From Aurantiochytrium sp. KH105 (lineage: Eukaryota > Sar > Bigyra > Thraustochytrida > Thraustochytriidae), in the NCBI GenBank assembly GCA_003116975.1, contig BGKB01000083.1:68603-132602 (forward strand): a stretch of 64,000 nt of DNA. Direction: 5' to 3'. Below are positions 16,707 to 56,015 of this stretch, piece after piece. A model generated the notes under the pieces. That model was not told the DNA's origin. It saw only the letters and a program-made list of their open reading frames with translations, and did no database searches. How positions within the stretch are numbered: the first letter of the stretch is position 1; each line of letters starts with the position of its first letter. A program made the position numbers and the translations under genes.

Positions 16707-18674
16707 CTACACGGCGCCAAATTCGGCACAAGCATTGTAAACGTCGCCTCGCTGGAACTCCTCAGCCTCGTTGAAGACCATCTCCCAGCCCCCGTAGGCA
16801 TACTCGGAGGCAACTGTCAGGTCCGGGCCGAGCGATGATGGCTCGCGGTGCACCGCGGTGATGAGCTCTGTCATTTCATTCCAAATGGTAGGACCCAAAT
16901 TCGTGCCAGGATAATCAGAAATGGTGGGATTTCCGTTGGCTTCAAGAAAGTGGATGTTTTGATCGGCGTCAATCATCCAGTCGAGCCCAAAGAGCATAAA
17001 GGCTCCCGGACGCCGCTTCAGACGCATGCGCGCAGCCTGAAAGACAAAATTTGTCGCACGCTTCACGTAATGCCGAAAGTGATCATCCATAAAGTTGGCC
17101 GGAAAGTGAGCTTCCTGCGTCAGGTAGTCACCGAGCTGCGCAAAACTCCAGAAATGGCCCTCGGTGTTGTCCTGGACCTTGTGGTTCGTAATGTGTCCTG
17201 CGCGCGAAAAGCTTGAGCCCGAGTACGCTTTCGACGATCGTCGAATAAACCCCTTGTGGTAAAAGACGATAAACGGCTTGGTTGAAGCAATGAGCAAATA
17301 CGTGCGCAAATCAAACTTTCGGCCCTCAATGAGCTGTGGATTGGCAATGTAATCCATCATGATGTACCCGGCGCTGCCCTTTTTGTCCTTGGTGCACCGT
17401 CCGTACCGCTTCTTGATATCGTACTTTAGACCCTTGTAAATTTTGATATTCTTGCCGTGGTAAGACCCGCCGTCCTTGCCGATCCACAGCTTTTCCGCGT
17501 TTTCAGAGGCCATGGCAACTTTAAAGAAGCGCTCGCAGTCAACTTTCTCCCTTAAATTGTATTGCGGGGGGGAAAGCTTTAGCGCCGAGTACTCGCAGCC
17601 ATGTTTGTTTGCAAGAGCAACTTTGCAGCGAAGTTGCGCGCCCTTGGTACCGCCAATGCATGAGCTCTTAGAAATTTGGCTAATCATTTTGCCTGTCGAA
17701 CCCGGCACCTTAGAGATCGGCTTGGTCACGTAGAGCGCTACAGGTGCCGTAGGATCATATCGATGTCTCCAGCCGGCGTGTTCCCAGGCGTGGAAAAGAC
17801 TGATAAACTTAGTGTTTACGACGCGAAAGGTCTTGTGCAGTTTGTTTGAAACCTGAGGCAAGAGCTCGAATTTGCCATTCTCCAGCACCGAGAAGCCGAG
17901 CTCACTCGGCCGCACAAGCACAGGCTCGTCTTCCTCATCATCTTCGTCCTCGCCATCTTCAGCCTCTACAAGCGGCTCGGACTCCCCGCGCTCTTCTTCG
18001 CTACGATCGACAACAAGACCAGCAAGGGCACCAGCATCTTCGCCCACAATTTCATCAGAGCTCGAATCATCCTCTGTTTGCTCTGAAACCTCCTCAAGCA
18101 CGTTCTCTACATCGAGATCGGCGACGCCATCGACGTTCGCCCGGCTCACGGGCGCGCTGTCACGGTCACGGTGATAGTCGCTGTCCTTGTTGTTGTTGTT
18201 GTTGTTGGTGGTGCCAACTGGGTTCTCTTCGTAGCCGTCAAGAGTCAGAGACACCTCGTCAGTCTCTTCGGGAGCCTCCAGATCAGACGGGCTATCCGCT
18301 AGAGGCTGCGACTCTTGTGGCTCTTCATGACGGAGAGAGGCGCGTTGCTTCTGGAGCGCGACCTGCTTGATCTGCTCCACGGTTTCGTCGAGTTCGAGGT
18401 CTGGCTGTTTGTTGAGGCGCGCGTTTTCGCGCTGCAGGGCTTCTACGCGGCTCTGCAGGTCGGCGACGGCCTGATGCAGGCGTCCGAGCTCGCGATCATG
18501 CTCGGCTTGCCGCTCTTGGGCAGCGTCGTCGGCCTCTACCGCCGCAAAGAGCGCGCTCGGCTCGAACCGCTGCAGCGGGCCATTCTCACACGCCACCCGC
18601 CCGTCCAGGGCCAGCAGCGCCACTGCGCACAGGCAGACCAGCGACACCACGTCGCGGAACCGCACGAGGCCCAT
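16707..18674 (-). CDS. Tubulin-tyrosine-ligase family protein with N-terminal signal peptide or anchor
   Basis: 655 residues when started at the ATG at 18674, chosen because a hydrophobic segment follows directly (VVSLVCLCAVALLALDG). An upstream in-frame stretch has no convincing start. After it come a coiled coil rich in Gln/Glu/Arg (about 45-110), a long acidic Ser/Glu/Asp region (about 110-265), and then the TTL ATP-grasp-like domain (about 300-640). Visible family signatures are IEGRKFDLRTYLLI, GHITNHKVQ, FMLFGLDWMID and HFLEANGNPTISDYPGTN. TTL-family enzymes ligate Tyr, Glu or Gly to tubulin or other proteins. The hydrophobic start would place the catalytic domain in the secretory lumen or on a membrane, which is unusual. 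The amino acid used cannot be told from sequence. Confidence 0.8.
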   Translation of the reverse strand: MGLVRFRDVVSLVCLCAVALLALDGRVACENGPLQRFEPSALFAAVEADDAAQERQAEHDRELGRLHQAVADLQSRVEALQRENARLNKQPDLELDETVEQIKQVALQKQRASLRHEEPQESQPLADSPSDLEAPEETDEVSLTLDGYEENPVGTTNNNNNNKDSDYHRDRDSAPVSRANVDGVADLDVENVLEEVSEQTEDDSSSDEIVGEDAGALAGLVVDRSEEERGESEPLVEAEDGEDEDDEEDEPVLVRPSELGFSVLENGKFELLPQVSNKLHKTFRVVNTKFISLFHAWEHAGWRHRYDPTAPVALYVTKPISKVPGSTGKMISQISKSSCIGGTKGAQLRCKVALANKHGCEYSALKLSPPQYNLREKVDCERFFKVAMASENAEKLWIGKDGGSYHGKNIKIYKGLKYDIKKRYGRCTKDKKGSAGYIMMDYIANPQLIEGRKFDLRTYLLIASTKPFIVFYHKGFIRRSSKAYSGSSFSRAGHITNHKVQDNTEGHFWSFAQLGDYLTQEAHFPANFMDDHFRHYVKRATNFVFQAARMRLKRRPGAFMLFGLDWMIDADQNIHFLEANGNPTISDYPGTNLGPTIWNEMTELITAVHREPSSLGPDLTVASEYAYGGWEMVFNEAEEFQRGDVYNACAEFGAV

Positions 18675-19529: not shown

Positions 19530-22500
19530 ATGGACGCCACCTCCGGCATCGCGCTCGTGCTGCAGCTTGCGCGAGACGGCGTCTCCCTTCTGGAGAGCGC
19601 CGTAGCATGCAAGCGACAGGCAGCGCGCCTCCAGCGCGCGCTCTCGCAGTTTGCCCCCCGTCTTGAGCAGCTGCGCGAGACGGACCTTAACGTAGCTCAG
19701 CTCGAAGCGGAGCTGCGCAGCCTTCTCGACCTTCTGAAGCCGTACTTCGGCGATACTGCTCGCAGCGGCCTTGCCGCTAAAACGCTCTTGCTCTTCCAGG
19801 TGAAAGCCATCCGGCAAGCACTTGCAAAGGCGGAGCAACATCTTCAAACATGCCTTCAACTCTGTCAGCTAGATCGGCAACCTGGGCAGCTTCGGGGACT
19901 CTGGCAGAGTCGAACTGCTGCAAGGCTCGCTGAAGAGGCCAAGGACGACGAAGATGCGCGGAATGAACTGCAACGCCTACTTGAAACTTTGCAAAGGCGT
20001 GGCCTCCTCAATAGTGCTTCAGAAGAAATCCTCTCGCTTCTTCAAGAAAATCCCGACATGGACGCCGGAGCTCTCTTTGAAGGACGTCTCGGGACTCGCC
20101 GTCAGCGCCGAGCTCTGGGGCGTCTCACAACCAGTCTTACTCGGGCCGAAGAGGTCGAGGCTGCTTCGCTTGGAAGAGATCAAGTCTTCATTAAGTCTCC
20201 GTTGCAGGTTCTTGGTGAAGGCCAATTCGGCCAGGTCGTTCTCGGCGTACTTCGACGCGATGATGGATCGGAAGTCGAGACTGCAATCAAGCGCGTCAAC
20301 CCTGACGGCCGCGGCATGCAGTTCTGGGAGCAGCAAGCTCTTATGCGCGAAGCCGCGAGCTTGAATGGTCTCAAGCATGCCAATATTGTCTGTCTCCTCG
20401 GAACGTGCATTCTCCAGAACCGCTTTCATCTTGTCATGGACAAGTGCGACATGTCGCTGTACGATCTCTTGTACCAAGGGGAGGCCGACGCGATGTCAGC
20501 ACTGACTCTTGACGATAAAGAAGCCATCCTGCGTGGGATCGCTCGCGGTCTAGATTACCTTCATGGCAAATCGGTGCTGCACCGTGACCTTAAGCCAGCC
20601 AATATCCTGCTCAACCACAACCTTGGTCTCGTCAAGCTGGCGGACTTTGGGCTCGCCACGCAGCTCGAGGCCAACAGTAGTGTCGCCAACACCGTCTCAT
20701 TTGCTGGGACACCTGTTTATATGGCACCTGAAGTTCTGCAGGTGCCTGCCCGATGGACAACGCGCGCGGATGTCTATGCTTTCGGTATAGTCATGTGGGA
20801 GGTCTACCATGGCAGATCGCCTTTTGCACGGGTGCGCTCGATCATGGATCTACAGACCCGAGTGTTGAACGGAGAGCGACCCATCATTTCTGACGAGATT
20901 GTAGTGCGTCCGTGGGTCGTGCCTCTGATACAGCGGTGCTGGGAGCATGACCCGGAAAACCGCCCACTTGCATCTGAGCTCCTAAAAATCTTTGAAGGTC
21001 GCAAGAATGTACGTCGATCGGCACGTCTCATTCGTGGTATGGTGTCAGTGTTTTCGCGACGCCGCAACGGCCAGAATGTCGCAGAAAGCACAAGCACCGA
21101 ACTTGTGCAGAGTCTCGCACGCGAGGTGTCACAGAAGTCAGATCGGCTTTCGCAAGCGCTCGACGCACTTCGCGAGATCCTCGAGCAGGAGTACCATGCC
21201 GGCGATGGTGACGTGGTGCGTGCAGATGTCCGGTCGCGCGGAATCATTCTAAGCATGAAACGACTTCTTGAACACGACACGGATGTAAACATCCTAACAA
21301 AAGCTCTGTGGGTGCTTCGCTTCGCACTGTCTGGCGCTACGGGCAGACCGTTTCGCATGGCCGCCGTTCACTCGCATGGACTCGACAAGATTGTGGTCAA
21401 CATGTTTCAAGCTTTTCGCGAGCACGAAGATCTTCAAGGAGCAGCTTGCGGGTTTGTCATGGTTGTTGCGAATGCCAGTGACGCCAACGGGGTGAGCCTT
21501 GTACAAGAAATGAAGATTGGCGATGAGATTGTCGCGGCCATGCGCGCGCATTGCACAAGCGAGACCGTGCAAACAGAGGCTTGCGGAGCACTTTGGCATC
21601 TCGCAGAGAACCTTGCTCGCAATATGGAGATTCTCGGGCAAGAGCTCAGGGTTGGCAGAGATATCGCTGAGGCGATGCGCTCGCATCCAGGGAGCCGGAC
21701 CGTGCAAACGAATGCATGCGGAGCTCTTTGGGTACTCGCGATCAATAGCCGCAACCGTATCATTCTTGGTCAAAGACTCAGGGTCGGCAGCTACATTGTC
21801 AGAGCCATGCGAGCTCACCGCACGAGTGTAAAGGTGCAGCAAAATGCGTGTAAAGCTCTTTGGAAGCTTGCAGGTAATACCAACAATCGCGTGATTCTTG
21901 GGCAAGAGCTAAATGCTGGTCAGGCGATCGTCGCGGCCATGCGCAGACATCCAATGAACGAAGGCGTGCAGAACTTTGCTTGCTCTGCTCTTTCTGACCT
22001 CGCAGGCAATGCCCGCAACCGTGTAATTTTGGGCCAAAAACTGAATGCCGGCGAGGTGATTATGGCTGCAATGTGCGCGCATTCCAGGAGTGCGATTGTT
22101 CGGGAGAAAGCCTGTGCAGCTCTTTCGGCTCTCGCAATCGATGGCCGCAACAAAGTAATTCTTGGGCAAGAGCTCAAGGTTGGCAAGGAGATCGCCAAGG
22201 CCATGCGCGAACATCGCACGCGCGAGGGCGTGCAGAAGAATGCATGCCGGGCTATTGGAGCCCTTGCTTGGGATAGTCACAATCGCGAAATACTTGCTCA
22301 AGAGGTCAAGGTCGGCGAGGAGATTGTTGTGGCCATGCGCTCCCATGCTGCGAAAAAGGTCGTGCAGACGCATGCATGCGAGGCGATTTGCAGCCTTGCT
22401 TTGAGCGAGCGGAACAAGGTCATCTTGGGCCAAGAGCTCAACGTTGGCAAGTACATCGCCGAGGCCATGCGCGCGCATCGTAGGTGCGAAAGGGTTCAAC

Positions 22501-22928
22501 AGGAAGCATGTCGTGCTCTCCAGATCCTTGCATTGAATGACCGCAACGAGACCATCCTTGCGCAAGAGTTCAAGGTCGGCAAGGAGATTGCGGCGGCCAT
22601 GCGTGCAAATTATGGGAATGCGAGCGTTCAAGAAAACGCATGTGGAGCTCTTTGGACTCTCTCCTTCAAGAGTCGTAACAAGACCATCCTCGGGCAAGAA
22701 GTCATGGTCGGCAAGGAGATCGTTATGGCCATGCGCACGCACCCTTGGAGCGAAGGCTTGCAAAAGAAAGCGTGCGGCGCTCTTAATAATCTTGCATTCG
22801 ACTCAACCGTGCGATCAGTTCTTCGAAGGCAAGGCGCTGTGCAAGCAGTCCAGCGCACCTGCCAGCGCTTCCCATCGCTTCAAACTGCCAAGGAAGCGAG
22901 AGCGAGACTGAGTCGTGGCAACGTCTGA
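19530..22928 (+). CDS. Protein kinase with C-terminal armadillo-like 44-residue repeats
   Basis: 1,132 residues from the first ATG (an in-frame GTG lies two codons upstream). An alpha-helical N-terminal domain (about 1-120), Leu-rich and amphipathic, resembles the helical adaptors before kinases such as MLKL. The kinase domain (about 225-490) has GEGQFGQV, AIKR, HRDLKPANILL, ADFGLA and GTPVYMAPEV, so it should be active, of tyrosine-kinase-like Ser/Thr type. From about residue 625 an ARM/HEAT-like array follows. One degenerate unit is followed by ten units of about 44 residues with the core AMRxHxxSxxVQxxACxALxxLAxxxRNxxILGQEL, ending about 1,110. Such arrays bind protein partners; the substrate is unknown. 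Confidence 0.85.
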   Translation: MDATSGIALVLQLARDGVSLLESAVACKRQAARLQRALSQFAPRLEQLRETDLNVAQLEAELRSLLDLLKPYFGDTARSGLAAKTLLLFQVKAIRQALAKAEQHLQTCLQLCQLDRQPGQLRGLWQSRTAARLAEEAKDDEDARNELQRLLETLQRRGLLNSASEEILSLLQENPDMDAGALFEGRLGTRRQRRALGRLTTSLTRAEEVEAASLGRDQVFIKSPLQVLGEGQFGQVVLGVLRRDDGSEVETAIKRVNPDGRGMQFWEQQALMREAASLNGLKHANIVCLLGTCILQNRFHLVMDKCDMSLYDLLYQGEADAMSALTLDDKEAILRGIARGLDYLHGKSVLHRDLKPANILLNHNLGLVKLADFGLATQLEANSSVANTVSFAGTPVYMAPEVLQVPARWTTRADVYAFGIVMWEVYHGRSPFARVRSIMDLQTRVLNGERPIISDEIVVRPWVVPLIQRCWEHDPENRPLASELLKIFEGRKNVRRSARLIRGMVSVFSRRRNGQNVAESTSTELVQSLAREVSQKSDRLSQALDALREILEQEYHAGDGDVVRADVRSRGIILSMKRLLEHDTDVNILTKALWVLRFALSGATGRPFRMAAVHSHGLDKIVVNMFQAFREHEDLQGAACGFVMVVANASDANGVSLVQEMKIGDEIVAAMRAHCTSETVQTEACGALWHLAENLARNMEILGQELRVGRDIAEAMRSHPGSRTVQTNACGALWVLAINSRNRIILGQRLRVGSYIVRAMRAHRTSVKVQQNACKALWKLAGNTNNRVILGQELNAGQAIVAAMRRHPMNEGVQNFACSALSDLAGNARNRVILGQKLNAGEVIMAAMCAHSRSAIVREKACAALSALAIDGRNKVILGQELKVGKEIAKAMREHRTREGVQKNACRAIGALAWDSHNREILAQEVKVGEEIVVAMRSHAAKKVVQTHACEAICSLALSERNKVILGQELNVGKYIAEAMRAHRRCERVQQEACRALQILALNDRNETILAQEFKVGKEIAAAMRANYGNASVQENACGALWTLSFKSRNKTILGQEVMVGKEIVMAMRTHPWSEGLQKKACGALNNLAFDSTVRSVLRRQGAVQAVQRTCQRFPSLQTAKEARARLSRGNV
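21528..22830 (+). repeat. Ten in-frame tandem repeats of about 132 bp inside the kinase gene
   Basis: Ten consecutive units of about 132-135 bases code the 44-residue repeats. Runs such as GCCATGCGC, GCATGCGGAGCTCTTTGG and CTTGGGCAAGAGCTCAAGGT recur between units, so the expansion is recognisable in DNA as well as protein. The last unit is the most diverged at its 3' end. Confidence 0.85.
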
Positions 22929-27774: not shown

Positions 27775-30141
27775 TTAGCTCTCACGCGCAGGCTCTGGCG
27801 TGTCAGTGAGCTCCTGCTCAATGTCTTTGTCAAGTCCCTCGTAAAATGACCCGAGCCGGTCAGCGGAGCTCTCAACCTGCGAAGACGGAAAACCATCGTT
27901 CTCCATGTTGAAGCTCAGTCCCAAAGACGACAAAGAATTCTGCGAAAGATTGAACTGCGAAATGTTGAGCATCTCTTGTGAGATATTGAAAATTTGCGAT
28001 GTGCCAGAGAATGACCCCATCGAATCCTGCGAGAAGACAGCGTCCGGGAACTCATTGCGTGTCGATGAAGCGGCACGCGGACTAGGCAAGGCAGAGAGAG
28101 CGGCCGGCGCTTCGTTCTCCGACACAACGTCGTCCTCTCGCGCAGACCCATTGCGAGACATGTTTTCCTTGAGTTGGCTTCCACTGATTGCTTGATGCTT
28201 TGGTGACTCCTTGGACTGGGAACCGGGCAACAACGACGGACCGTCATCCTTTTGCACATCGATTGAGAGCTCCGATTTGCGCTGCGTGCCCGGAACTTCG
28301 CTCTGTCGACTCGAAATAGCACCATCCTGCGACTCATTTCCCATCGCAAGGTCTTCCGGAGTGAGCACCTTGATGGGATTTCCAGTGACTTTCGAGTAGT
28401 ACGCGCAGTAGCGCGTCATAAATTCTTCTACACAAGATATTTGGTACTTGAGCATTTGACTCGGGGTCGGCAGAGGCGGTTCCGACTCCAGCGCTTTCGG
28501 TTCTTTGTCACTGAGAACACGTTCCGTTACGAGCGCTGCATTCGCAGGATGACCTTGCGCCGTCTTCGGAACGGGCAAGGGGTGCTGAAGATATGAGAGC
28601 TGGGCTCGTGAATTTGAGCTAGATGGTGATTTGGCGTCCGCCGCGACTGCACTCTCCTTTCTAGCCTTGCTGACTTGCCGAGGTGGCTGGAAAGCCCTGG
28701 GACGGGGCACCCTTTTCGGGACGCGTTCCGAAGCTTGGGAGTTTGCCAATGAGGACGCCGGCGCCGGCGATGGTGATGGTGATGGGGACGGCGAGGGCGA
28801 TGACACGACAGATCCCTGACTGTTTTGAATGACGTACTTTTTGTACGTTTTCCTCGAGCATAACGGAGCCGAGCCCAGCGCGTGCTCCTCCTGCGAACCC
28901 ATACTGGACCTCCTCGATGGCGATAGCGACAAAGAGTTGGCGAGGGGCGAGGCGGCGCCTTTGAAGCCGCCAGATGATGGCTGCGTTTGCAATTGCGATT
29001 GCCTTTGCGTCTGCGATCGTGTCCGCTCCTTAGACCGTGACGTCGTTTCGAGCTGGTGTCTACTTCGCGCAGAAGGGCCCGCATCCGCTGAAGTTGCGGT
29101 CGTCTGCACGTTTCTTTCACCGTGGGGCGTGGCTGCCGTTGCCAAAGACGAAGAGGAACTGCAAAGCTTTTCAATCCAAATCCGCAATTCTTCTGCATCA
29201 CGCGGCTTCCTTCGCTGCGCAAATTGACGAATGTGGTGCACAAAGTTTTCTGACCAACGATAGTACGCCTTCGTTTTTGCGGTTGCTTCAAGGTGTATCT
29301 CCACATACCCGAGCTCAACGAAAAAGGCGATCATCTCATCGAGATTTGATTCGCGCAGAGGTGCAACGAGAAGGTTAGTATATTTGCTCAGCAGCTCATG
29401 GGCGCACCACGGATTGAAGGGCCCAGGCGTCATGATTTCGTTGAAACCAACAACCGTGAGTCTACGTGCCAAATGAACCAAGGTTGCTTTCGAACTGCTG
29501 ACAACCGCATCTTGCACCACGCCAGAGATTCCTCGAAAGGCACGACCCATACCATTCCAAACGAGCTCGTTGGTAATCTCGTCGCGCGACACGACCTCGA
29601 ATGCCCCGAGGATGCGAATGCAGGTTCGAAGTGGGTCGTTGTTGAAGCCAAAGTCCGAGACGAGCTCCTGCACGTCAAAGTGAGTCACTGTGGCCCCATA
29701 AAGAGTGGACAGCCCCCGAAGTGCTTCCGTTGGGGATTTATTGTCGCCCAGCAGTCGAAACTCGCGGTTCTCCTCTTGGAGCTGATGGGCTTGTTGCTGC
29801 ATGCGCTCCTGGTGCACTTTGGCGGCTTCTTTAAAAGTTTGCGTCTTTCGATGCGGTCTTTGTCGAATCTTGGGCTTTGCTGCTTGTTGCTGCGGCGATT
29901 TTTGGCCGTCGGGGGCCCAGGCGCCTTCTTTTGACGACGACGACGACGACGCCTTCGTTTCGAGGTCGCCCGCTGCGACCGCTTGCTGCGCTTCCGAACC
30001 ATGTGTCGCCGCCTTCGAAGGGCTTTGCGCGTGCTCAGACGTTCTCGCAACCTTTTTCGGTGGCGTATCCCCGGTCCGCGCCGCGTCTGTCTTTGCGGCC
30101 TCGCGCGCTGCGTACGGAGAACCCCGCGGTCGCTGCGCCAT
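27775..30141 (-). CDS. Large Ser-rich protein, possible winged-helix DNA-binding region
   Basis: 788 residues from the ATG at 30141 (an in-frame TTG upstream was not used). A basic, disordered head (about 1-110) precedes a folded region (about 115-320) rich in short helices and aromatics, e.g. LSTLYGATVTHFDVQELV, PLRTCIRILGAFEVVSRD and TNELVWNGM. The last two recall the RRIYDxxNVLExxxxV...W pattern of winged helices such as E2F, but the match is weak and I would not name the family. The rest is low complexity: Ser, Gln, Pro-Ser dipeptides (28750-28800) and a tail with NISQ, NLSQ and NSLSSLG repeats. Many SQ/TQ and SP sites suggest phosphorylation. Probably nuclear. Confidence 0.65.
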   Translation of the reverse strand: MAQRPRGSPYAAREAAKTDAARTGDTPPKKVARTSEHAQSPSKAATHGSEAQQAVAAGDLETKASSSSSSKEGAWAPDGQKSPQQQAAKPKIRQRPHRKTQTFKEAAKVHQERMQQQAHQLQEENREFRLLGDNKSPTEALRGLSTLYGATVTHFDVQELVSDFGFNNDPLRTCIRILGAFEVVSRDEITNELVWNGMGRAFRGISGVVQDAVVSSSKATLVHLARRLTVVGFNEIMTPGPFNPWCAHELLSKYTNLLVAPLRESNLDEMIAFFVELGYVEIHLEATAKTKAYYRWSENFVHHIRQFAQRRKPRDAEELRIWIEKLCSSSSSLATAATPHGERNVQTTATSADAGPSARSRHQLETTSRSKERTRSQTQRQSQLQTQPSSGGFKGAASPLANSLSLSPSRRSSMGSQEEHALGSAPLCSRKTYKKYVIQNSQGSVVSSPSPSPSPSPSPAPASSLANSQASERVPKRVPRPRAFQPPRQVSKARKESAVAADAKSPSSSNSRAQLSYLQHPLPVPKTAQGHPANAALVTERVLSDKEPKALESEPPLPTPSQMLKYQISCVEEFMTRYCAYYSKVTGNPIKVLTPEDLAMGNESQDGAISSRQSEVPGTQRKSELSIDVQKDDGPSLLPGSQSKESPKHQAISGSQLKENMSRNGSAREDDVVSENEAPAALSALPSPRAASSTRNEFPDAVFSQDSMGSFSGTSQIFNISQEMLNISQFNLSQNSLSSLGLSFNMENDGFPSSQVESSADRLGSFYEGLDKDIEQELTDTPEPARES

Positions 30142-31135: not shown

Positions 31136-32611
31136 ATGGACGCAACGGCGAATGCCACGATAACGAAACCTTCGGTATCATCGACGACAGCGAGCACAGC
31201 CGCCATGTCGGGTGCATCATCAGGGACAACGACACCTCCAGGAGGCGCGAAGCGCAAACGGTCCGAACCCGGGTCCGGATCCAGCAGCAAAGAGGCCAAG
31301 GGCGGCAAAGGCGGAAAAAAAAGTAGCTCAAACGGTGTGGCGGGTGGCAAGCATGGCAGCAAAACAGCGAATGGAACCGCGGCGGGGAGCAGCGAGGCCA
31401 ACCCGAAACGAATCGCATACTTTCATGATCTCGAGCTGTCGACCTACGAGCACGGACGCGCGCACAAGTTTCGACCATTTCGCGCAAAGCTCGCACATCA
31501 ACTCATTAATGGCTACGGCGCTTACAAGGACCTGATGGAGGTCCTGCGCCCGCGGCTCGTCACGCGCACAGACATGGGCCAGTACCACTCGGATGCTTTC
31601 CTCGAAATCCTTGCAACGGCCCAAGCCACGGCGAATAAGCGCTTTGGCTGGGCCCAGACCGATGTCGCGGAGTCCGAGGATCCCTTGGTGCGACGCAAGA
31701 TCGAGGAGGTCTTTGAGCGCTTCAACGTTGAGCTCGACCCACAAAAGTCAGGAAACGCCATCTTTCCTGGCGTTCTCGACTACTGCAGACTGTACACGAC
31801 AGGCTCGCTCGGGTGCGCGGCACGTCTTTGTGCTGGGACTGCCGATGTCGCCATCAACTGGTACGGCGGCATGTGCCACGCCCGGGGTTCTCGCGCGGCC
31901 GCCGGGTGCTATGTGAACGATGTTGTTCTGGCGACGCTCGAGCTCTTGAAAAGGTTCAAACGGGTTCTATACATCAACTTGAGCGGGGTCCACGCCGACG
32001 CCGTAGAGGAGGCCTTTTACACGACGAGCCGGGTCATGACTCTTTCGTTTCATTTGAATGCGGAGCAGAATCCTCGCGAATGGCCGGGCACCGGGCACGT
32101 CGACGATGTCGGCGTGGATGACGGTGAAGGTTTCGCCATAAATGTTCCCGTGGACCCAGGTATCGACGACCCAATGCTTGTGTCCACATTTACAGAGATT
32201 GTCAAGAAGGCCGCTGCTGTCTACCTCCCAGAGGCGATTGTCATGCAGTGTGGTGGTGGTTTTCTCTCGACGGAGCGCGGCGGTTGCTTCAATGTAACGG
32301 AGCAGGCTTATGCAGATTGCGTGCGCGTTGTGCGCGACCTTGACGTTCCGCTGCTCATGCTTGGAGGCAACGGCTCCAACATGGCGCGCACGGCGCGCAT
32401 GTGGGCTTTCGCCACGATGGTCCTGCTGCGCAAGGAGTCTCTTCTCAAAGACAATCTTATTCCAGACGTGGTGCCTTGCAGGTACTATTTCGAGCCAAAC
32501 TACGAAATCGTGGGACCCACGGCAAAGATGCCCAACCTCAACACGGAAGAGGAGAACCTCAAGTTACGGCGTCGGGTGCTTGGTAACTTGAACCAACTCA
32601 TGACCAAGTAG
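31136..32611 (+). CDS. Class I histone-deacetylase-like pseudoenzyme
   Basis: 491 residues. A disordered Thr/Ser/Lys head (1-90) is followed by a full-length RPD3/HDAC1-type domain (about 95-455): YHSDAFLEIL, GVLDYCRLYTTGS, CYVNDVVLATLELLK, RVLYI, EEAFYTTSRVMTLSFH and GCFNVTEQAY. Against human HDAC1 the active site is destroyed. His140 becomes Cys247 while His141 is kept (His248). Asp174 becomes Asn281. Zinc ligands Asp176, His178 and Asp264 become Ser283, Val285 and Gly375. The catalytic Tyr303 becomes Ser414. The frame, scaffold motifs and length are intact, so this looks like a maintained non-catalytic paralogue, perhaps a scaffold or acetyl-lysine reader in a corepressor complex, rather than a pseudogene. 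Confidence 0.88.
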   Translation: MDATANATITKPSVSSTTASTAAMSGASSGTTTPPGGAKRKRSEPGSGSSSKEAKGGKGGKKSSSNGVAGGKHGSKTANGTAAGSSEANPKRIAYFHDLELSTYEHGRAHKFRPFRAKLAHQLINGYGAYKDLMEVLRPRLVTRTDMGQYHSDAFLEILATAQATANKRFGWAQTDVAESEDPLVRRKIEEVFERFNVELDPQKSGNAIFPGVLDYCRLYTTGSLGCAARLCAGTADVAINWYGGMCHARGSRAAAGCYVNDVVLATLELLKRFKRVLYINLSGVHADAVEEAFYTTSRVMTLSFHLNAEQNPREWPGTGHVDDVGVDDGEGFAINVPVDPGIDDPMLVSTFTEIVKKAAAVYLPEAIVMQCGGGFLSTERGGCFNVTEQAYADCVRVVRDLDVPLLMLGGNGSNMARTARMWAFATMVLLRKESLLKDNLIPDVVPCRYYFEPNYEIVGPTAKMPNLNTEEENLKLRRRVLGNLNQLMTK

Positions 32612-36714: not shown

Positions 36715-39700
36715 ATGGACAAGGCGCGCCAGGATGCCGCGGGCGAGGCCGACTCCAGGCGCGAGATCGACGCCTGGTGGGCCCCGAACACGGTGCAGGG
36801 ACCGCGCGGCGTGCGCAGGCGCAACTCGAGCGCTGCCGCCTCGGTCGCCGACCTCCCCGCAAGAAGCTTGAACGAGGACGACGACACGGCGAGCCAACAG
36901 ACGAGCAGAACACGAGCTCTGACGGGCGACGAGACCGCCGAAGACGAAGATTACTACGACGAAGACGATGATGGCGGCGTAGACATGCCGAGCCGGACCG
37001 TCTTAGGGTCCAATGCAACGCTCGCAAACAGCTTCGCGGCCCGAAATGACGCCACGCAGTGGTCCAGTGACAGATGCTGGGAACAAGTCAAGGTGAACCA
37101 GTATGACGGCGAAATCCCATCGCAGCGCTCGCTGCACATCGCCGTCGGATATCATCAAAGCATGTACATTTTTGGCGGCTACACTGGCCGCGAACGAGTC
37201 AACATGCTGCACAGATTTGATTTTCTCAGCGCAACATGGCACGCAATGGACAGAGCTGGAGGCGAACCTCCGTCGCCACGCGATCGCCACACAGGCGTTG
37301 TTGTCGAGGACGCCCTACTCATCTTCGGCGGCTACGACGGAATGGTGCGCTGCAACGACATCCACGCCTTCGACCTTCGGCATAATTCCTGGGTCCCCGT
37401 CGAACTTACCAGCAAGGTCGTGCCTTCGGCGCGGCACAGCCACGCAGCATGCTCTCTTGGCGACAAAATGTACGTCACTTGTGGCTACGACGGATCATAC
37501 AGAAACGACCTCTACGAGTTCACACTCGCGAGCATGAGCGATGAAGGCGAGAACACGATGCTGCGCAGACGAACCGGAGAGAGCGACCTCGAAGACGAGA
37601 CCGAAGAGAACAACACAGCTTTGGCTCCCTACGGCTCTGCCGCATCCACTGTAGCGGCCAATGAGCCCTGCGTGCGCGGTCAGTGGCGCAAGATCATGGC
37701 CAAAGGCCGATTCCCCCAGGCGCGATACCGAGCGACCTGCTGCGTCCATGCAGACGCCCAGAGTTCGCCCAAGATTGTGCTCTTTGGCGGCCATAATGGC
37801 CTCGTGCATCTACAGTGCACTCACGTGTTTGACATTGTGTCCGAGACTTGGTCCACTGTGCGCACATCCGGAGCGGTGCCCTTGCCGCGCGACTCCCACT
37901 GTGCAGTCATGTACGAAGACAATATGCTCGTTTTTGGCGGCTCGTGTGGACAACCTCTCAATGACTTTTCGTGTCTCTCCATGGAGACGCTAGTGTGGAA
38001 ACCCGTGGGCGGGGACTCATGGACCCCTTCGGCGCGTTTCTGCGCCTCGGCAGTGTTGCACGACCGCAGCTTTTATATCTTTGGCGGCTACGACTCCACC
38101 GAGCGTCTTCGCGACATTCACCGCTTCAAATTTGCAGCCAGCGTCTGCTCGGTAGAACGCAGTACGATTCTCGAGGATTTTTCCGGAAGCGTCGGCGACG
38201 ACTTTCTTAGCGATATGGTCTTTGTGCTGGGTGGCACGTACATTCCTGCTCATCGCATCTTTTGCACGCGATGCACCAACATCCTCGCGTCGACACCAGC
38301 CGAGAGCGCCGTTGAAGAGGCGGGTTCAGAGTCCAGCCCAATGGAGTACTGGCAAGACGGCGCAAATGGTGAATTCCAGGCCAAGGCCTCAAGTGCGCCT
38401 GAGCGCGACGGCAGCGGCCGTTACGTCATTCGCGTGCGCGAAAATGTCAAGCTTGATATTTTCAGGAGCTTCTTGCGCTACCTGTACACGGACAAGGTTC
38501 AGCTTGTGGACGCGGAGATGGCGCTCGAAATGTACACGATTGCCGAGGAGTACCGGGTGAAACGGCTCCAAAGGATCTGCCTCAATTTCATTTCCACCAC
38601 GCTTACCGTGCAAAACGCTGCAAATGTCTTTCAAGCGTCGGACTTGCACAAAATCACAAAACTGCGCGATCGCACGCTCAAATTCATCTTGCACAACTTT
38701 GATGCCGTCTCCAAGACAAAGGCATTTGAAGAGATGGGCCGCATCAATGTGGAGCTTGTCTTTGAGGTGCTGCGAAACCGTGGCGACGAGGGCCGGGAAA
38801 CCACGCCAGAGGACGCGTTTAGCGAAGATTTCATTGGCATGTCGATCGCAGATCAGCTGTCGTTCGTGAGCGGCAGCGCCGTCAGCAGTCCGCGCGACAG
38901 TACCATGGGTGGAGGTGTCGGCGGGACTAGTACTGTGGGACGCGAAGATGGCAGCTTTGCAGTTCACTCTGCCGCTGTGGAAGGACAAGCAAATCATGGA
39001 GCGGCTGAGCCACTCGCGGCGTCTTACTACGAGCGAGCGCGCCAATGGATCCCCGTCTCCGTGATTGACGACGGCGTCTCGCCGGGCAAGCGGTCGCTGC
39101 ATGCAATGACTGTCTACAAAGATACAATACTCTTGTTTGGAGGCTACGATGGGCGCGTGCGCGTGAACGACTTTTACCAGTTTTCGCTCAAGACTCACAA
39201 GTGGGAGATCGTGCCCGTGTTACAAGGATCTTCGCCGCCGCCGAGTCCGCGCGACCGTCATACAATCATGCAACTGGGCCATTGCCTCTGGGTATTTGGC
39301 GGTTACGACGGACAGGTTCGCGTCAATGAGCTGCACTCGTTCGATTTCCAGAGGAAACAGTGGTCGATCATTCCCCCAGATCTTTCCACGCCGACGGCAC
39401 GTCACTCTCACAGTGGTTGCGCTGTGCCCTCGCGCAAGTGTCTCTACATTTTTGGCGGATACGACGGAAGCTACTTGAACGACCTGCACGAGTTCGACGT
39501 CATGGACCTTACCTGGCGCTGCGTAAAGACGAATGGAAAGCCGCCCACGCCGCGGTACCGCGCAACGCTCGTGTGCATGGGCCACCATCTCGTCTGCGCC
39601 ATGGGCCACGATGGCTACCGCCACCTGAACGACTTGTACTCGTTTAATCTCCGTACCAACACATGGGCCATGCTCCGACTCTCGGGACCTGCGCCGGCCC

Positions 39701-40512
39701 CGCGCGATTCGCATACTGCATGCACGCTCGGCTCCAATCACATGATCATCTTTGGCGGCTCTAGTGGGAGCTCACTCAATTGCATGCACAGGCTGCGCTT
39801 CTCCAAGGACGAGGGCGTGTGGAGCCGCGTCACCTGCAGTGGAATGTTGCCCTCGCCGCGATTCTGTCACAGTTCTGTGCTTATTGGCAAGACCATGTAC
39901 ACGTACGGCGGCTACGACGGCTCGAACCGTCTCGAGGACTGGATCGAGTTTTCTTTCGGGGAGAATCGCGTATCGCAAGTTCCACGAAGCACAATCGTCA
40001 GTGATCTAGCTTCGCTCGTGGACAATCCCAAGTGCTCGGATGTCAGCTTTCTTGTCGAGGGCAGGCGCATCGCGGCGCATCGCATCGTATGCGTTCGCTG
40101 CGACTACTTCAAGGCTATGTTCGCTCGCGAGGGTGGTTTCCGTGAGTCGCGCCAGCAAGAAATTACCATTCTGGATGTGCGCTACGACACCTTTTACACT
40201 CTTTTACGCTATCTTTACACGGACCGTCAGGACGTTCCGCTCGAGATGGCCATGGATCTTTTCATCGCTGCAGATCGTTTCGGCATTGAGCGTCTGAAGA
40301 ACATGTGCGAGAATCGAATGTTATCCTCGCTTGATATGGAGAATGTTTCCGAGCTTTTTGCTGCGGCCGATCTGCATCATGCCGAGGGGCTTCATTCCGA
40401 GTGTCTTCGCTTCATTGTACAAAACTTTGACATTGTGTCCAAAACTCGAGGTTTCGAGGAGATGGGCCGTTCCAACATTGACCTCATCTTTGCCATTCTC
40501 AAGAACCGCTAG
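36715..40512 (+). CDS. Double Kelch-BTB-BACK protein (LZTR1-like layout)
   Basis: 1,265 residues. After an acidic head (1-110), module one has six Kelch blades (about 120-485: GGYTG, GGYDG, CGYDG, GGHNG, GGSCG, GGYDS), a BTB domain (about 495-640, with an inserted loop) and a BACK-like helical tail ending FEEMGRINVELVFEVLRNR (about 690). A linker (690-775) leads to module two with the same order: six blades (GGYDG, GGYDG, GGYDG, MGHDG, GGSSG, GGYDG; about 790-1095), BTB (about 1103-1200) and a tail ending FEEMGRSNIDLIFAILKNR. Such proteins are usually Cullin-3 substrate adaptors. LZTR1 also has Kelch repeats and two BTB domains, but only one propeller. The gene starts at the first ATG. Confidence 0.9.
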   Translation: MDKARQDAAGEADSRREIDAWWAPNTVQGPRGVRRRNSSAAASVADLPARSLNEDDDTASQQTSRTRALTGDETAEDEDYYDEDDDGGVDMPSRTVLGSNATLANSFAARNDATQWSSDRCWEQVKVNQYDGEIPSQRSLHIAVGYHQSMYIFGGYTGRERVNMLHRFDFLSATWHAMDRAGGEPPSPRDRHTGVVVEDALLIFGGYDGMVRCNDIHAFDLRHNSWVPVELTSKVVPSARHSHAACSLGDKMYVTCGYDGSYRNDLYEFTLASMSDEGENTMLRRRTGESDLEDETEENNTALAPYGSAASTVAANEPCVRGQWRKIMAKGRFPQARYRATCCVHADAQSSPKIVLFGGHNGLVHLQCTHVFDIVSETWSTVRTSGAVPLPRDSHCAVMYEDNMLVFGGSCGQPLNDFSCLSMETLVWKPVGGDSWTPSARFCASAVLHDRSFYIFGGYDSTERLRDIHRFKFAASVCSVERSTILEDFSGSVGDDFLSDMVFVLGGTYIPAHRIFCTRCTNILASTPAESAVEEAGSESSPMEYWQDGANGEFQAKASSAPERDGSGRYVIRVRENVKLDIFRSFLRYLYTDKVQLVDAEMALEMYTIAEEYRVKRLQRICLNFISTTLTVQNAANVFQASDLHKITKLRDRTLKFILHNFDAVSKTKAFEEMGRINVELVFEVLRNRGDEGRETTPEDAFSEDFIGMSIADQLSFVSGSAVSSPRDSTMGGGVGGTSTVGREDGSFAVHSAAVEGQANHGAAEPLAASYYERARQWIPVSVIDDGVSPGKRSLHAMTVYKDTILLFGGYDGRVRVNDFYQFSLKTHKWEIVPVLQGSSPPPSPRDRHTIMQLGHCLWVFGGYDGQVRVNELHSFDFQRKQWSIIPPDLSTPTARHSHSGCAVPSRKCLYIFGGYDGSYLNDLHEFDVMDLTWRCVKTNGKPPTPRYRATLVCMGHHLVCAMGHDGYRHLNDLYSFNLRTNTWAMLRLSGPAPAPRDSHTACTLGSNHMIIFGGSSGSSLNCMHRLRFSKDEGVWSRVTCSGMLPSPRFCHSSVLIGKTMYTYGGYDGSNRLEDWIEFSFGENRVSQVPRSTIVSDLASLVDNPKCSDVSFLVEGRRIAAHRIVCVRCDYFKAMFAREGGFRESRQQEITILDVRYDTFYTLLRYLYTDRQDVPLEMAMDLFIAADRFGIERLKNMCENRMLSSLDMENVSELFAAADLHHAEGLHSECLRFIVQNFDIVSKTRGFEEMGRSNIDLIFAILKNR

Positions 40513-42000: not shown

Positions 42001-43431
42001 ATGCTCGAGGCAGGAGTCGAAGCCGTGCAAGTAGATGGGCAGCAAAACCGTGGCACATCAGCTACGGCAGGGGCCGCTGACGCGATGCCTTCAAAGAACG
42101 AGGATGTGGCGGTCTACGTCGAAAGCAATCGTCAGGCGGCGCGTAGCATCGAGGATGACACGGCCTCGACAGCCTTTGACGCGACCATGGAGGATGGCGA
42201 CCTTGTTGTGACGCCTCGCGTCAATAGCCTCAAGGTGGACCCGGAGGAGGCGAAATCAAGGCTCTCCATCTCAGTCGAAGAGCCGACTTTGGTGGACTGG
42301 TTCGCAGTGCTTGCGATGAGCATCGTCATGGGCTTCATTTTTGGTTTCGCATTTGCCAAATCGCGCGTCTTTGAGCCCATGGTGATCCGAGGGCAGTTTC
42401 TCTTTCAAAACAACATTATGATGAAGATGTTTCTTGCCGCAGTGGCCACTTCGCAAATTATCTTTATCATCATTAATCGCACCCCGTACAAGCGGCGATT
42501 CGAGCGCGCGAGGCGGAAGCGCGAGACAGGACGAGGAATTCGCACGACGATGCTTGGCGCTTTCATTCTCGGCATGGGGCTTGCCGTTTCTGCTGCGTGT
42601 CCGGGCATGGTGCTTGCTCAGGTCGGCGCAGGTGTCGAGAACAGTGGCTACACCTTGCTCGGCGGCGTTCTCGGAGCACTTCTTTTCCAGCTTACTGATC
42701 CGCTCATCAAGCCCATTACGGATCGCTTTGGTGGTCAGAAGCTGACCATTGAGTACGTCGATGACTACTTGGGGCTTTCGTACACCAAGACGGCAGGACT
42801 TTTTGCATTTCTCATTACCCTGACAGTTATTCTCCTTGAGGTCTTCATTCCCTGGAAGCAGGATATCTACTACCAGCTGAGCCCGGATTGCTCTGCCACA
42901 GCCTTTTGGAATTGCTACGCATGGCCGCCTTTTATTGGCGGTGTCTTCGTGGGTCTTTTGCAGCTCCCGGTGTTTTTTGTCATGGGAAGTGTCCTTGGCT
43001 CTTCGACAAGCTATGTTGTTGCCTGCGCGGGCTGGCTCCATCTTTTGCCTGAGGACTTTCGCCATCCCTTTACCTATGCCAAGCGGTTCATGTACCCGAA
43101 GCTTGACACTCACTGGCAGCTCATGTTTGTCATGTTCTCGATCCTCGGTGCCTACCTCACCGAGCTGCGCTCTGGCATGGTAGGAACTGCGCAGGGGCTC
43201 AGCATTGGCTACTCGCTCGTGGGTGGTTTACTTTTGGTTTTTGGCGCTCGGATGGCTGGAGGCTGCACGAGCGGACATGGCGTCTCGGGCATGGCGCTAC
43301 TCTCCATTCATAGCATGGCGGCTGTCGCGGCCATGTTTGCGGGTGCCATTGGCACTGGCCTCGTGCTTGAATTTTTTGTCAGCACTGATAGCAACCCTTA
43401 CTACATTGCACCGAATCCCACGCTCAACTGA
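42001..43431 (+). CDS. YeeE/YedE-family sulfur-compound transporter
   Basis: 476 residues. A polar head of about 95 residues is followed by about ten membrane helices forming two YeeE/YedE half-domains. The hallmark motifs are both present: AACPGMVLAQVGAG (about 198-211) and GARMAGGCTSGHGVSG (about 416-431), with the Cys residues that relay thiosulfate in characterised bacterial proteins. Bacterial members import thiosulfate or selenium compounds. Eukaryotic members are uncommon, and I infer an old bacterial origin. The gene shares strand with the LarA-like gene 730 bases downstream. Confidence 0.85.
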   Translation: MLEAGVEAVQVDGQQNRGTSATAGAADAMPSKNEDVAVYVESNRQAARSIEDDTASTAFDATMEDGDLVVTPRVNSLKVDPEEAKSRLSISVEEPTLVDWFAVLAMSIVMGFIFGFAFAKSRVFEPMVIRGQFLFQNNIMMKMFLAAVATSQIIFIIINRTPYKRRFERARRKRETGRGIRTTMLGAFILGMGLAVSAACPGMVLAQVGAGVENSGYTLLGGVLGALLFQLTDPLIKPITDRFGGQKLTIEYVDDYLGLSYTKTAGLFAFLITLTVILLEVFIPWKQDIYYQLSPDCSATAFWNCYAWPPFIGGVFVGLLQLPVFFVMGSVLGSSTSYVVACAGWLHLLPEDFRHPFTYAKRFMYPKLDTHWQLMFVMFSILGAYLTELRSGMVGTAQGLSIGYSLVGGLLLVFGARMAGGCTSGHGVSGMALLSIHSMAAVAAMFAGAIGTGLVLEFFVSTDSNPYYIAPNPTLN

Positions 43432-44160: not shown

Positions 44161-45789
44161 ATGCTGGCAGAAGCAGGCAGCGAGACCGCAGAGCTGAGCT
44201 CCGCCGAGCTGCGCGCGCTTGTCTGCGACGCGTTGGGAAAGCTGGAAAAGGTCAAGGAGCGGAAAAAAGTCCTCATCCTGCCCCCAGATCATACGCGGCT
44301 CCACTCACGCGCCGGCGAGCTGACCCGCATGGTGTACGAGTACTATGGAAGCTACGTAGCAGACATCATGCCGGCGCTTGGCACGCACAAGCCCATGACA
44401 GATGAACAGCTTTCGGGCATGTTTGGCACCTACATTCCAAAGTCGCTCTTTCGCGTTCACGATTGGCGAAATGACGTTGTCCAAGTGGGCGAGGTCCCTC
44501 AGAGCCTTGTAGAGTCCGCGAGCGAAGGAAAGGTCAAGGAGCCGTGGCCTGCCCAGCTCAATAAACTTGTCTGGGAGGGTGGCCACGACCTTGTCATTTC
44601 AATCGGCCAGGTTGTTCCGCACGAGGTTATGGGAATGGCCAATTACAACAAGAACCTCTTTGTCGGCGTGGGAGGGCCAGAAGCCATTCACTTGAGCCAC
44701 TTTGTCGGTGCTGTTTACGGCATGGAGCGAATGATGGGGCGCGCAGACAACCCGCTGCGCAAGATCCTGGACTACGCCACGGAGCACTTTCTCAAGGGCA
44801 AGCTTCCCGTGGTGTATATGCACACTGTGATTGCCAACCAGGGCGGCGAGCTCGTCACGCGCGGTCTCTACATCAGTGAAGAGAGAGACTGCTTTGAAAA
44901 GGCGGCGGCGCTTTCCCTGCGAGTCAACTTTCAACTTCTCGATGAGCCCATCGCCAAGGTCGTCGCCTATTTGGACCCCGACGAGTTTACGTCAACGTGG
45001 CTGGGAAACAAGTCAATTTACAGGACGCGCATGGCCATTGCAGACGGCGGCGAGCTCATTGTACTAGCGCCTGCTGTCGAAAAATTTGGTGAGGATGCGG
45101 AAATCGATGCTGTTATTCGTGAGCATGGGTATCGCTCGACGCCAGAGATTATGCGATTTCTGGAAAATAGCAGGAGTCTGATGCGGAACTTGAGTGCCGC
45201 GGCGCACCTGATTCACGGTACCTCTGAAGGCCGCTTCAAAATTACGTATTGCCCAGGCAAGCTCTCCAAGGAAGAAGTTGAGTCAGTGGGTTACTCGTAT
45301 GGCGATCTTGACGTTATGATGAAAAAGTACGACCCGACCCAACTCAAGGATGGTTTCAACATGGTCGATGGCGAAAAGATCTTTTTTGTTTCCAAACCAG
45401 CGCTTGGTCTTTGGGGCTACAAGGGTCGCTTTGACCATGGCGATGATGGCGCCGCCGCGGAAGGCACAGCAACAGCAAAAGGGGCAGCAGCAAAAGGAGT
45501 ATCGAAAGCTGCTGAAGGTGAAGGCGCAGCGGCAGTTGCAACCAAGACTACAGAAACAGCATCCGAGGGCACGGCGGCCGGCGCCAAGGCCATCGAAGCA
45601 GCTGCGACACGATTCTCGTCATCCATGGACGCAAGCAAGCCGTCAGCAGATGCTGGTATTGGCGGTGGACCTTTTCAACACAGCTCAGGGCTTGAAGATG
45701 AAAGCGAAAAGGAGAGGCAAGAAGACGCCAAAGATGCTGCTGAGCCAGCTGTCAAGAAACAAAAGATTGAGACTAGCGAACATGACTAA
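44161..45789 (+). CDS. LarA-like (lactate racemase family) nickel-pincer-nucleotide protein
   Basis: 542 residues from the first ATG. The LarA domain occupies about 20-430: ILPPDHTRLHSRAGELT, MPALGTHKPMTDEQL, GQVVPHEVMGMANYNKNLFV, GGPEAIHLSHFVGAVYGMER. All metal and cofactor residues of Lactobacillus LarA align: His108 is His76, His174 is His154, Lys184 (the covalent link) is Lys164 (+10) and His200 is His180 (+16). The fold uses a nickel-pincer nucleotide to racemise or epimerise 2-hydroxy acids. The substrate may not be lactate. A C-terminal Ala/Lys/Glu low-complexity tail of about 110 residues ends in AVKKQKIET, possibly a nuclear localisation signal. LarB, LarC and LarE are not in this window. 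Confidence 0.88.
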   Translation: MLAEAGSETAELSSAELRALVCDALGKLEKVKERKKVLILPPDHTRLHSRAGELTRMVYEYYGSYVADIMPALGTHKPMTDEQLSGMFGTYIPKSLFRVHDWRNDVVQVGEVPQSLVESASEGKVKEPWPAQLNKLVWEGGHDLVISIGQVVPHEVMGMANYNKNLFVGVGGPEAIHLSHFVGAVYGMERMMGRADNPLRKILDYATEHFLKGKLPVVYMHTVIANQGGELVTRGLYISEERDCFEKAAALSLRVNFQLLDEPIAKVVAYLDPDEFTSTWLGNKSIYRTRMAIADGGELIVLAPAVEKFGEDAEIDAVIREHGYRSTPEIMRFLENSRSLMRNLSAAAHLIHGTSEGRFKITYCPGKLSKEEVESVGYSYGDLDVMMKKYDPTQLKDGFNMVDGEKIFFVSKPALGLWGYKGRFDHGDDGAAAEGTATAKGAAAKGVSKAAEGEGAAAVATKTTETASEGTAAGAKAIEAAATRFSSSMDASKPSADAGIGGGPFQHSSGLEDESEKERQEDAKDAAEPAVKKQKIETSEHD

Positions 45790-55146: not shown

Positions 55147-56015
55147 CAACGGCCTCGCGCGCAGACCCGACCCGCGCGCGCGCGCCTCGCGACTCGCCCG
55201 GGCGAAGATTGCGGCTTTGCTCGGCGTTGCTTTGCGTTTTTGCCCGCGCTCAACGCGACCGTCTCGAAGCGGGTCTCGGGCTCTTTCTTTCTTTCTTTCT
55301 TTCTCTCTCTTGTCGCTCTTCTCTTCTTCTCCTCCTTTTCCTCGCACAGCCCGCCCCGGATTTCCGGGCCCCCCCTGCGCTTTTTCCGCCTCTTCGCCCT
55401 GGCCCCGCCGGCTCTTGCGGCGGCAAGCAAGGCCGGCCGGGCGCAAGTGCGCTATGGCTGCGCATGAATGTGCTATCGCGCCGATATGCACTTGCGCCGC
55501 GCGCGATTCCCGACTTGCGCCGGCGCGCCCAGCTCGCGGTCGCGCCCAGGCAGCCAGGCATGCATGCACAGGCGGCCAGTCGCCTGCGCCGCCTCGACTC
55601 GACTCGACCGTCGCGCCCAGCCCGCTGCTCCTGCCGCGTCTCCGTGCCTTGCCGTGCCGTGCCGGGTCCCGCCCGAGGAGATGTGCTGCGAGGTGACGAT
55701 GTGATGGACCATGCAGGCATGACGCACCTGCGCCGTGCTCTAACGTGCAGCAAAACCTGGACGAGCGCGACGCGTCGAAGCAGACGAGCGCGACCTGGAC
55801 CGCGGCCGCCGTCGCCAGCCCGCGGCGAGCTCGGAGCGGCAGCAACGGCGGGAAGAGGAGGAGGGAAGTACTCTCGCTGCTGGCCGCTGGATTGCGCAGC
55901 GTCTGCCAGGAGGAGGGAAGGAGGGAGGGAGGGAGCGAGCGCGGCCCAGTCCAGGTTCGGTCGCTGCCACCTCGACGCCACGCCGAGGGAGAGACAGACG
56001 CCGACGGGGAGCGAG
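55147..56015. promoter_or_regulatory. Divergent promoter region (channel / hydrolase)
   Basis: 869 very GC-rich bases between head-to-head genes, with (TTTC)n at about 55284-55306 and short GACTC and CCGTG runs (55598-55668). Long frames on both strands are GC artefacts. Confidence 0.45.

Follow-up and report, generated by a model that had tools for sequence, protein, structure and literature searches.

The open reading frame P0001 (positions 31136 to 32611, plus strand, stop codon included) lies in the window, the whole 64,000-nucleotide stretch of Aurantiochytrium sp. KH105 DNA that was analysed, and runs uninterrupted from ATG to stop over 491 codons; it is predicted to encode a class I-type HDAC pseudoenzyme of 491 amino acids. 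We cautiously favour the view that P0001 is a class I-type HDAC paralogue which has lost zinc-dependent deacetylation and has been selected as a non-catalytic protein, perhaps in a Sin3-type complex. P0001 is held by purifying selection as tightly as the intact HDAC1-type paralogues of the same genome, and its most likely role is one for which enzyme activity is dispensable.

The sole Pfam match of P0001 was to PF00850 (Hist_deacetyl) at residues 110-427 (31463 to 32416, plus strand; also covered by the AlphaFold model and Foldseek), scoring 160.7 bits (cut-off 27.9). When residues 87-488 were compared with the PDB using phmmer, the best matches were HDAC2 (E 1e-82), Rpd3 and HDAC1, with E-values of about 1e-82 to 1e-78, and the best 60 of 131 matches were all HDACs. 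An AlphaFold2 model, for which the input was P0001 from residue 85 on together with 46 of 81 fetched relatives, had a mean pLDDT of 84.5 and a pTM of 0.88. The top match of this model in the PDB (Foldseek) was HDAC2 (E 1.4e-35, TM-score 0.88 by target length), a TM-score by target length of 0.90 was obtained against the Rpd3S and SIN3S/SIN3L Clr6 chains, and the best 50 of 445 matches with E <= 0.001 were again all HDACs. P0001 was identical to HDAC1 at 144 of 349 aligned positions. The RPD3/HDAC1-type fold claimed in an earlier, sequence-only reading of this DNA was thus borne out, and P0001 is predicted to have the HDAC (arginase-deacetylase) fold across the whole domain.

Beyond the Pfam domain limits lies an N-terminal tail (residues 1-88; 31136 to 31399, plus strand), which is rich in Ser, Gly and Lys and has no counterpart in the intact paralogues A, B and C of the same genome; insertions near residues 164-182 and 307-315 are also missing from these paralogues. 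The tail contains KRKR at residues 39-42, which by motif we take to be a candidate nuclear localisation signal and which suggests a nuclear place for the protein.

Residues were mapped on a MAFFT alignment of P0001, HDAC1, the in-genome HDACs A, B, C and D8 and the 81 fetched relatives. Residues 247-258 of P0001, CHARGSRAAAGC (31874 to 31909, plus strand), align with HHAKKSEASGFC of HDAC1; here His140 is replaced by Cys247, Gly149 by Ala256 and Phe150 by Gly257, while His141 and Cys151 are retained as His248 and Cys258. In NLSGVHADA (residues 281-289; 31976 to 32002, plus strand), which aligns with DIDIHHGDG, two of the three zinc ligands are changed (Asp176 to Ser283 and His178 to Val285) along with Asp174 (to Asn281), and His179 and Asp181 are retained as His286 and Asp288. 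The third zinc ligand, Asp264, is Gly375 in CGGGFLSTERG (residues 372-382; 32249 to 32281, plus strand; CGSDSLSGDRL in HDAC1), where Asp269 is also changed to Glu380 and the tunnel residue Leu271 to Gly382. The catalytic Tyr303 is Ser414 in GNGSNMA (residues 411-417; 32366 to 32386, plus strand; GGGYTIR in HDAC1), with Gly301 changed to Asn412 and Arg306 of the inositol-phosphate pocket to Ala417. Asp99 and Phe205 are replaced by Gly206 and Trp316, respectively, and the counterparts of Ser197 and His199 are retained. All six substitutions named in the sequence-only reading (at HDAC1 positions 176, 178, 264, 303, 140 and 174) proved exact on this alignment. A misalignment hiding the zinc triad was ruled out: the motifs VEEAFYTTxRVMT and GCFN flank the changes, and the Asp-His-Asp triad was restored neither in three alignments, which agree, nor in a second copy of the gene on contig C85.

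The zinc triad, the Tyr and the His-Asp residues are required by the established class I deacetylase mechanism. In HDAC1, Asp99 contacts the peptide backbone and its Ala mutant was reported to be without activity (PMC4848466). As P0001 has neither the zinc ligands nor the catalytic Tyr nor Asp99, zinc-dependent deacetylation is therefore very unlikely under the class I mechanism. Judged by these residues, P0001 would almost certainly have no zinc deacetylase activity.

The 81 relatives comprised the best 80 of 336 bacterial and archaeal loci and one viral-contig locus (L024), and were fetched via two short motifs which include only His178 among the six positions, with either His or Val permitted. 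The standard residue was present at all six positions in 81 of 81 relatives and in four of four comparators (A, B, C and D8). No P0001-like relative without the standard residues was found among the best 80 of the 336 bacterial and archaeal loci, and two scans of viral contigs gave one HDAC locus (L024, with standard residues) and none, respectively. Over the 86 other alignment rows, 38 columns were defined as near-invariant; P0001 has lost the residue at 13 of these and retains 25, compared to losses of 0/38 for A, 0/38 for B, 1/38 for C and 4/39 for the HDAC8-like D8. The losses in P0001 fell more often in the catalytic pocket (10 of 16 positions) than elsewhere (3 of 22; Fisher P =0.0045), a P value which is only indicative because the pocket list was drawn up after the losses were known.

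The second copy of P0001 on contig C85 (L009:3158-4633) is open over 491 codons, aligns with no gap between the copies and has the identical residue at all changed and retained pocket sites. Between the copies there were 28 synonymous and 4 non-synonymous changes (dS 0.083, dN 0.0036, dN/dS 0.043), and the amino acid differences were confined to residues 86, 155, 194 and 277, none of which is in the pocket. The neutral expectation is that about 24 of these 32 changes would be non-synonymous (P =6.6e-14 for four or fewer). By the same method, dN/dS between the copies of the intact paralogues was 0.052 for A, 0.026 for B and 0 for C, and the three pooled (62 synonymous and 6 non-synonymous changes) were not different from P0001 (P =0.72). 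Among 40 open reading frames of at least 200 amino acids in the window, each compared to contig C85, the pN/pS of P0001 (0.046) was the second lowest defined, the lowest (0.012) belonging to an aminopeptidase-P-like gene; 22 of the 40 were listed individually, the remainder having a ratio of at least 0.4 or none defined. The ratio of non-synonymous to synonymous changes in P0001 was also below that of 19 pooled neighbouring frames (P =0.007); this pool was drawn from the 21 other listed frames, omits 54389-55696 and 55464-57551, which are interrupted by gaps and stops on C85, and includes 60482-61750, for which C85 has a single stop. Each HDAC gene occurs twice, and in alignment the window region is 93-96% identical to contig C85, a pattern that two assembled haplotypes of a presumably diploid organism would produce. 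The same pocket in both copies and a dN/dS of 0.043 rule out a sequencing error or a pseudogene, and P0001 is therefore neither error nor decay, in line with the earlier claim that the protein is selected. We are all but certain that P0001 has a selected function.

A normal HDAC1 was sought in the same genome (an assembly of 76 Mb in 367 contigs). There were 26 matches to PF00850, which were read as twelve genes in two copies each, with one gene matched in two pieces; every HDAC gene was found twice, on different contigs. Three HDAC1/RPD3-like genes with standard residues were identified (A, L003/L004; B, L005/L006; C, L007/L008), along with a single HDAC8-like gene (D8, L016), and the six catalytic and zinc residues were retained in L003, L005, L007 and L016. 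The remaining PF00850 genes were read, on their sequences, as probable class II or other HDAC-like proteins. The HDAC genes of this genome lie mostly in single open frames, and the G+C content was 52-67%. With intact HDACs present, the enzymatic need of the cell can be covered without P0001. In paralogue A (L003:1486-3021) the usual HDAC N-terminus is absent from the open frame, the first Met lying just before HPMKPHR, so this gene may have an upstream exon.

The closest in-genome relative of P0001 was paralogue B (41% identity). P0001 grouped with HDAC1, HDAC2, A, B and C with a support of 91/86 in an 18-row tree and 87/89 in a 14-row tree, values which are moderate and below the starred level; the prokaryotic rows in these trees, 10 or 7 in number, were chosen by hand. 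A position outside A, B, C, HDAC1, HDAC2 and HDAC8 was not rejected (AU p =0.08), while a pairing with B, prompted by the 41% identity, was neither supported nor rejected (AU p =0.21). The branch leading to P0001 was long (1.35-1.39 changes per column, compared to 0.32 for paralogue B), which together with the low dN/dS indicates much past change followed by present constraint.

The residues Tyr48, Glu63, Lys126, Lys144, Leu161, Tyr166 and Tyr333/Tyr336 of HDAC1 have been mutated to map corepressor docking, and the Y333A/Y336A double mutation was reported to abolish all HDAC1 partnerships, Sin3 included (PMC12448893). The sequence-only reading had held that the surface motifs are kept in P0001, and this stood in part: Tyr48 and Leu161 are retained, Glu63 is conservatively changed to Asp and a 3-residue deletion leaves one of Tyr333/Tyr336 (which one is alignment-dependent), but Lys126, Lys144, Tyr166 and Arg306 are lost. 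Lys126 is also absent from intact paralogue B, which retains six of the eight mapped docking residues. In the inositol-phosphate pocket Arg270 is retained beside the changed Arg306, and the HDAC1 blocks 152-163 and 188-199 are each identical in P0001 at 10 of 12 positions. From these residues, canonical corepressor docking is probably altered in P0001.

Candidate partners were found in the genome in the form of a Sin3 HDAC-interaction domain (PF08295, contigs C104 and C113, E 8.3e-32) and an Sds3-like protein (PF08598). ELM2 gave one match, on one contig, of 27.0 bits (cut-off 21.7) that covers only 19 of 53 positions. There was no match to Rxt2_N in the genome, but the controls were equally matchless, so this result does not argue that the domain is missing. 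Sin3 itself supplies an acidic triad in place of inositol phosphate in the SIN3B complex (PMC10156912), so the partial loss of the pocket may count less against Sin3 than against SANT partners.

P0001 would then be nuclear and act via the exterior of the HDAC fold, filling the place of a structural HDAC copy without catalysis in a Sin3-type corepressor; alternatively, it might compete with the active paralogues for a place in this corepressor. Whether as HDAC subunit or as competitor, its silence would be permanent and fixed in the gene. Such a corepressor-scaffold role is possible, and that P0001 acts inside a class I HDAC-type complex at all is, in our view, slightly less likely than not. 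The counterparts of His141, His179 and Asp181 speak against a scaffold, as pure scaffolding does not require their retention.

The loss of several corepressor-contact residues also fits a non-catalytic HDAC-fold protein that has departed from HDAC complexes and serves an unrelated partner, which we consider the less probable course, though one to be taken seriously. With Lys144, Tyr166, Arg306 and one of Tyr333/Tyr336 gone, Sin3 and ELM2-SANT proteins may both drop out as partners, and both the long branch, yet with constraint now, and the 88-residue tail and two insertions absent from A, B and C would suit a new association. Against this, the counterparts of Tyr48, Leu161 and Arg270 are retained, as are the two blocks with 10 of 12 identical residues.

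It is unlikely that the pocket of P0001 has been rebuilt for other chemistry or another ligand, whether as a Cys-His-Asp arrangement, with a different metal or in small-molecule sensing. His248 and Asp288 are presumably the counterpart of the His141-Asp181 pair in the HDAC mechanism; together with His286 and Cys258 they are retained amid changed neighbours, with the new Cys247 beside His248, and no amino acid difference between the two copies falls in the pocket. These retained residues may nevertheless be structural, as 25 of the 38 near-invariant positions are retained anyway, and the PDB matches are HDACs throughout (among the best 60 of 131 by phmmer and the best 50 of 445 by Foldseek). 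That His248, Asp288 and Cys247 would form a different catalytic or ligand-binding site without the canonical zinc, and so confer a new activity, seems from the sequence unlikelier still. Slightly less likely again is the suggestion, made in the sequence-only reading, that P0001 still binds acetyl-lysine without cleaving it, as a reader. The overall fold and the His141 and His179 counterparts are retained, but the peptide-gripping Asp99, of which the Ala mutant is described as inactive (PMC4848466), is Gly206, all three tunnel-wall residues that were checked (Phe150, Phe205 and Leu271) are replaced by Gly257, Trp316 and Gly382, and no ligand remains for a zinc ion to position the acetyl oxygen; with Asp99 and these tunnel residues gone, acetyl-lysine binding is therefore unlikely and the suggestion is weakened. 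That P0001 is a duplicate in decay, or the product of faulty sequencing or alignment, has in its favour the lost catalytic residues themselves and nothing further that was found, and can be dismissed as highly improbable given two open, gap-free copies with a dN/dS of 0.043 (P =6.6e-14 against neutrality) and the unambiguous VEEAFYTTxRVMT and GCFN context of the changes.

The surroundings of the gene were also inspected. Ten neighbouring open reading frames were screened against Pfam and included kinase, trypsin, ankyrin, kelch/BTB, transporter and other matches, with one frame matchless and no evident tie to HDACs. Upstream of P0001 on the opposite strand is a frame of 788 amino acids (27775-30141, minus strand) with a pN/pS of 0.279 and no Pfam match at 1e-4. 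The frame at 16707-18674 (minus strand) had a pS of 0.0045 between the copies, compared to about 0.03-0.09 in the other listed frames, and this near-identity suggests a local loss-of-heterozygosity or gene-conversion block. In the frame at 19530-22928 (plus strand) a protein kinase domain precedes armadillo repeats of the LRRK2 type, and the frame is internally repeated, as 21.5-22.8 kb aligns out of register at 63-65% identity. A single chain of 1265 amino acids (36715-40512, plus strand) combines numerous kelch repeats with two stretches of BTB. A Sulf_transp match (42001-43431, plus strand) adjoins a match to the lactate racemase N-terminal domain (44161-45789, plus strand); both families are mainly bacterial, and these two genes were possibly acquired from bacteria. 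Elsewhere in the genome, the PfaA-like PUFA-synthase genes L022 and L023 (G000 C72 and C155) showed a KS-AT-type match as well as the LGIDSIKRVEIL motif in an ACP. Along with the mostly single-frame HDAC genes and the G+C content, these genes point to a probable thraustochytrid.

Class I HDACs are enzymes and also structural parts of their complexes, and the non-enzymatic share of their work is an open question. A class I HDAC without its zinc site that is yet strongly constrained would be a natural separation-of-function case, which makes the question of non-enzymatic roles directly testable. Should the pocket instead have been rebuilt, P0001 would be no inert scaffold but a protein in which the class I HDAC fold carries a new activity. 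As the PF00850 score of P0001 exceeds the cut-off (160.7 versus 27.9 bits), deacetylase activity should not be annotated from a domain match alone.

Searches of the open-licence full-text literature, which is only part of all literature, turned up no class I HDAC pseudoenzyme that lacks the zinc triad, and among the papers listed for thraustochytrid HDACs there was none on the P0001 gene. HDAC-fold pseudoenzymes are already known, namely the second domain of HDAC10 and, in milder form, class IIa. Class IIa HDACs retain the catalytic zinc site. In these proteins (HDAC4/5/7/9) the Tyr is replaced and activity is described as doubtful (PMC12383505), and their domain has been termed a pseudo-HDAC domain and an SMRT-recruiting module (PMC4498904); beside the distal Rpd3L/SIN3L copy described below, it sets a further precedent for HDAC domains that work without activity of their own, here in recruitment. 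The class IIa change is from Tyr to His, whereas in P0001 the zinc ligands are gone too and the best matches are to class I. The second domain of HDAC10 (class IIb) was named a pseudo-deacetylase (PMC5454378) and has been called catalytically inactive (PMC11532494). It likewise has an HDAC fold, but forms the C-terminal half of a protein with two domains and is described as lacking helices of the fold (PMC5454378); unlike it, P0001 is free-standing, with one full domain, a single PF00850 match and best matches to class I. Two further candidates were set aside: trypanosome DAC2 as a divergent precedent, as the zinc residues and Tyr are reportedly conserved in four of four T. cruzi HDACs (PMC8569148) and passages of a T. 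brucei paper make no mention of lost residues in DAC2 (PMC2941730), and class IV HDAC clade A as a parallel, which is described as inactive on the tested peptides but with conserved catalytic residues (PMC13325672).

To the class I HDACs themselves (human HDAC1 and HDAC2, yeast Rpd3 and fission yeast Clr6), P0001 is related by whole-domain homology and the same fold, and it differs from them in having no zinc ligands, catalytic Tyr or Asp99, in its replaced tunnel residues, in its 88-residue N-terminal tail, in having no C-terminal tail and in the 3-residue deletion near Tyr333/Tyr336. The nearest working analogue is the distal HDAC copy of yeast Rpd3L/SIN3L. One of the two Rpd3/Clr6 copies in this complex, in the distal lobe, has its active site plugged by Rxt2 and is described as possibly structural (PMC10115800, PMC13183676), and the significance of this blocked copy in fungal SIN3L/Rpd3L was called unclear by those who described it (PMC10224958, PMC10115800). 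Like the role proposed for P0001, the distal copy is a class I HDAC subunit with a silent site that may be structural (PMC10115800, PMC13183676); it is, by these accounts, an intact enzyme whose site Rxt2 plugs and a second nucleosome can unlock, whereas in P0001 the site has been lost in the gene itself.
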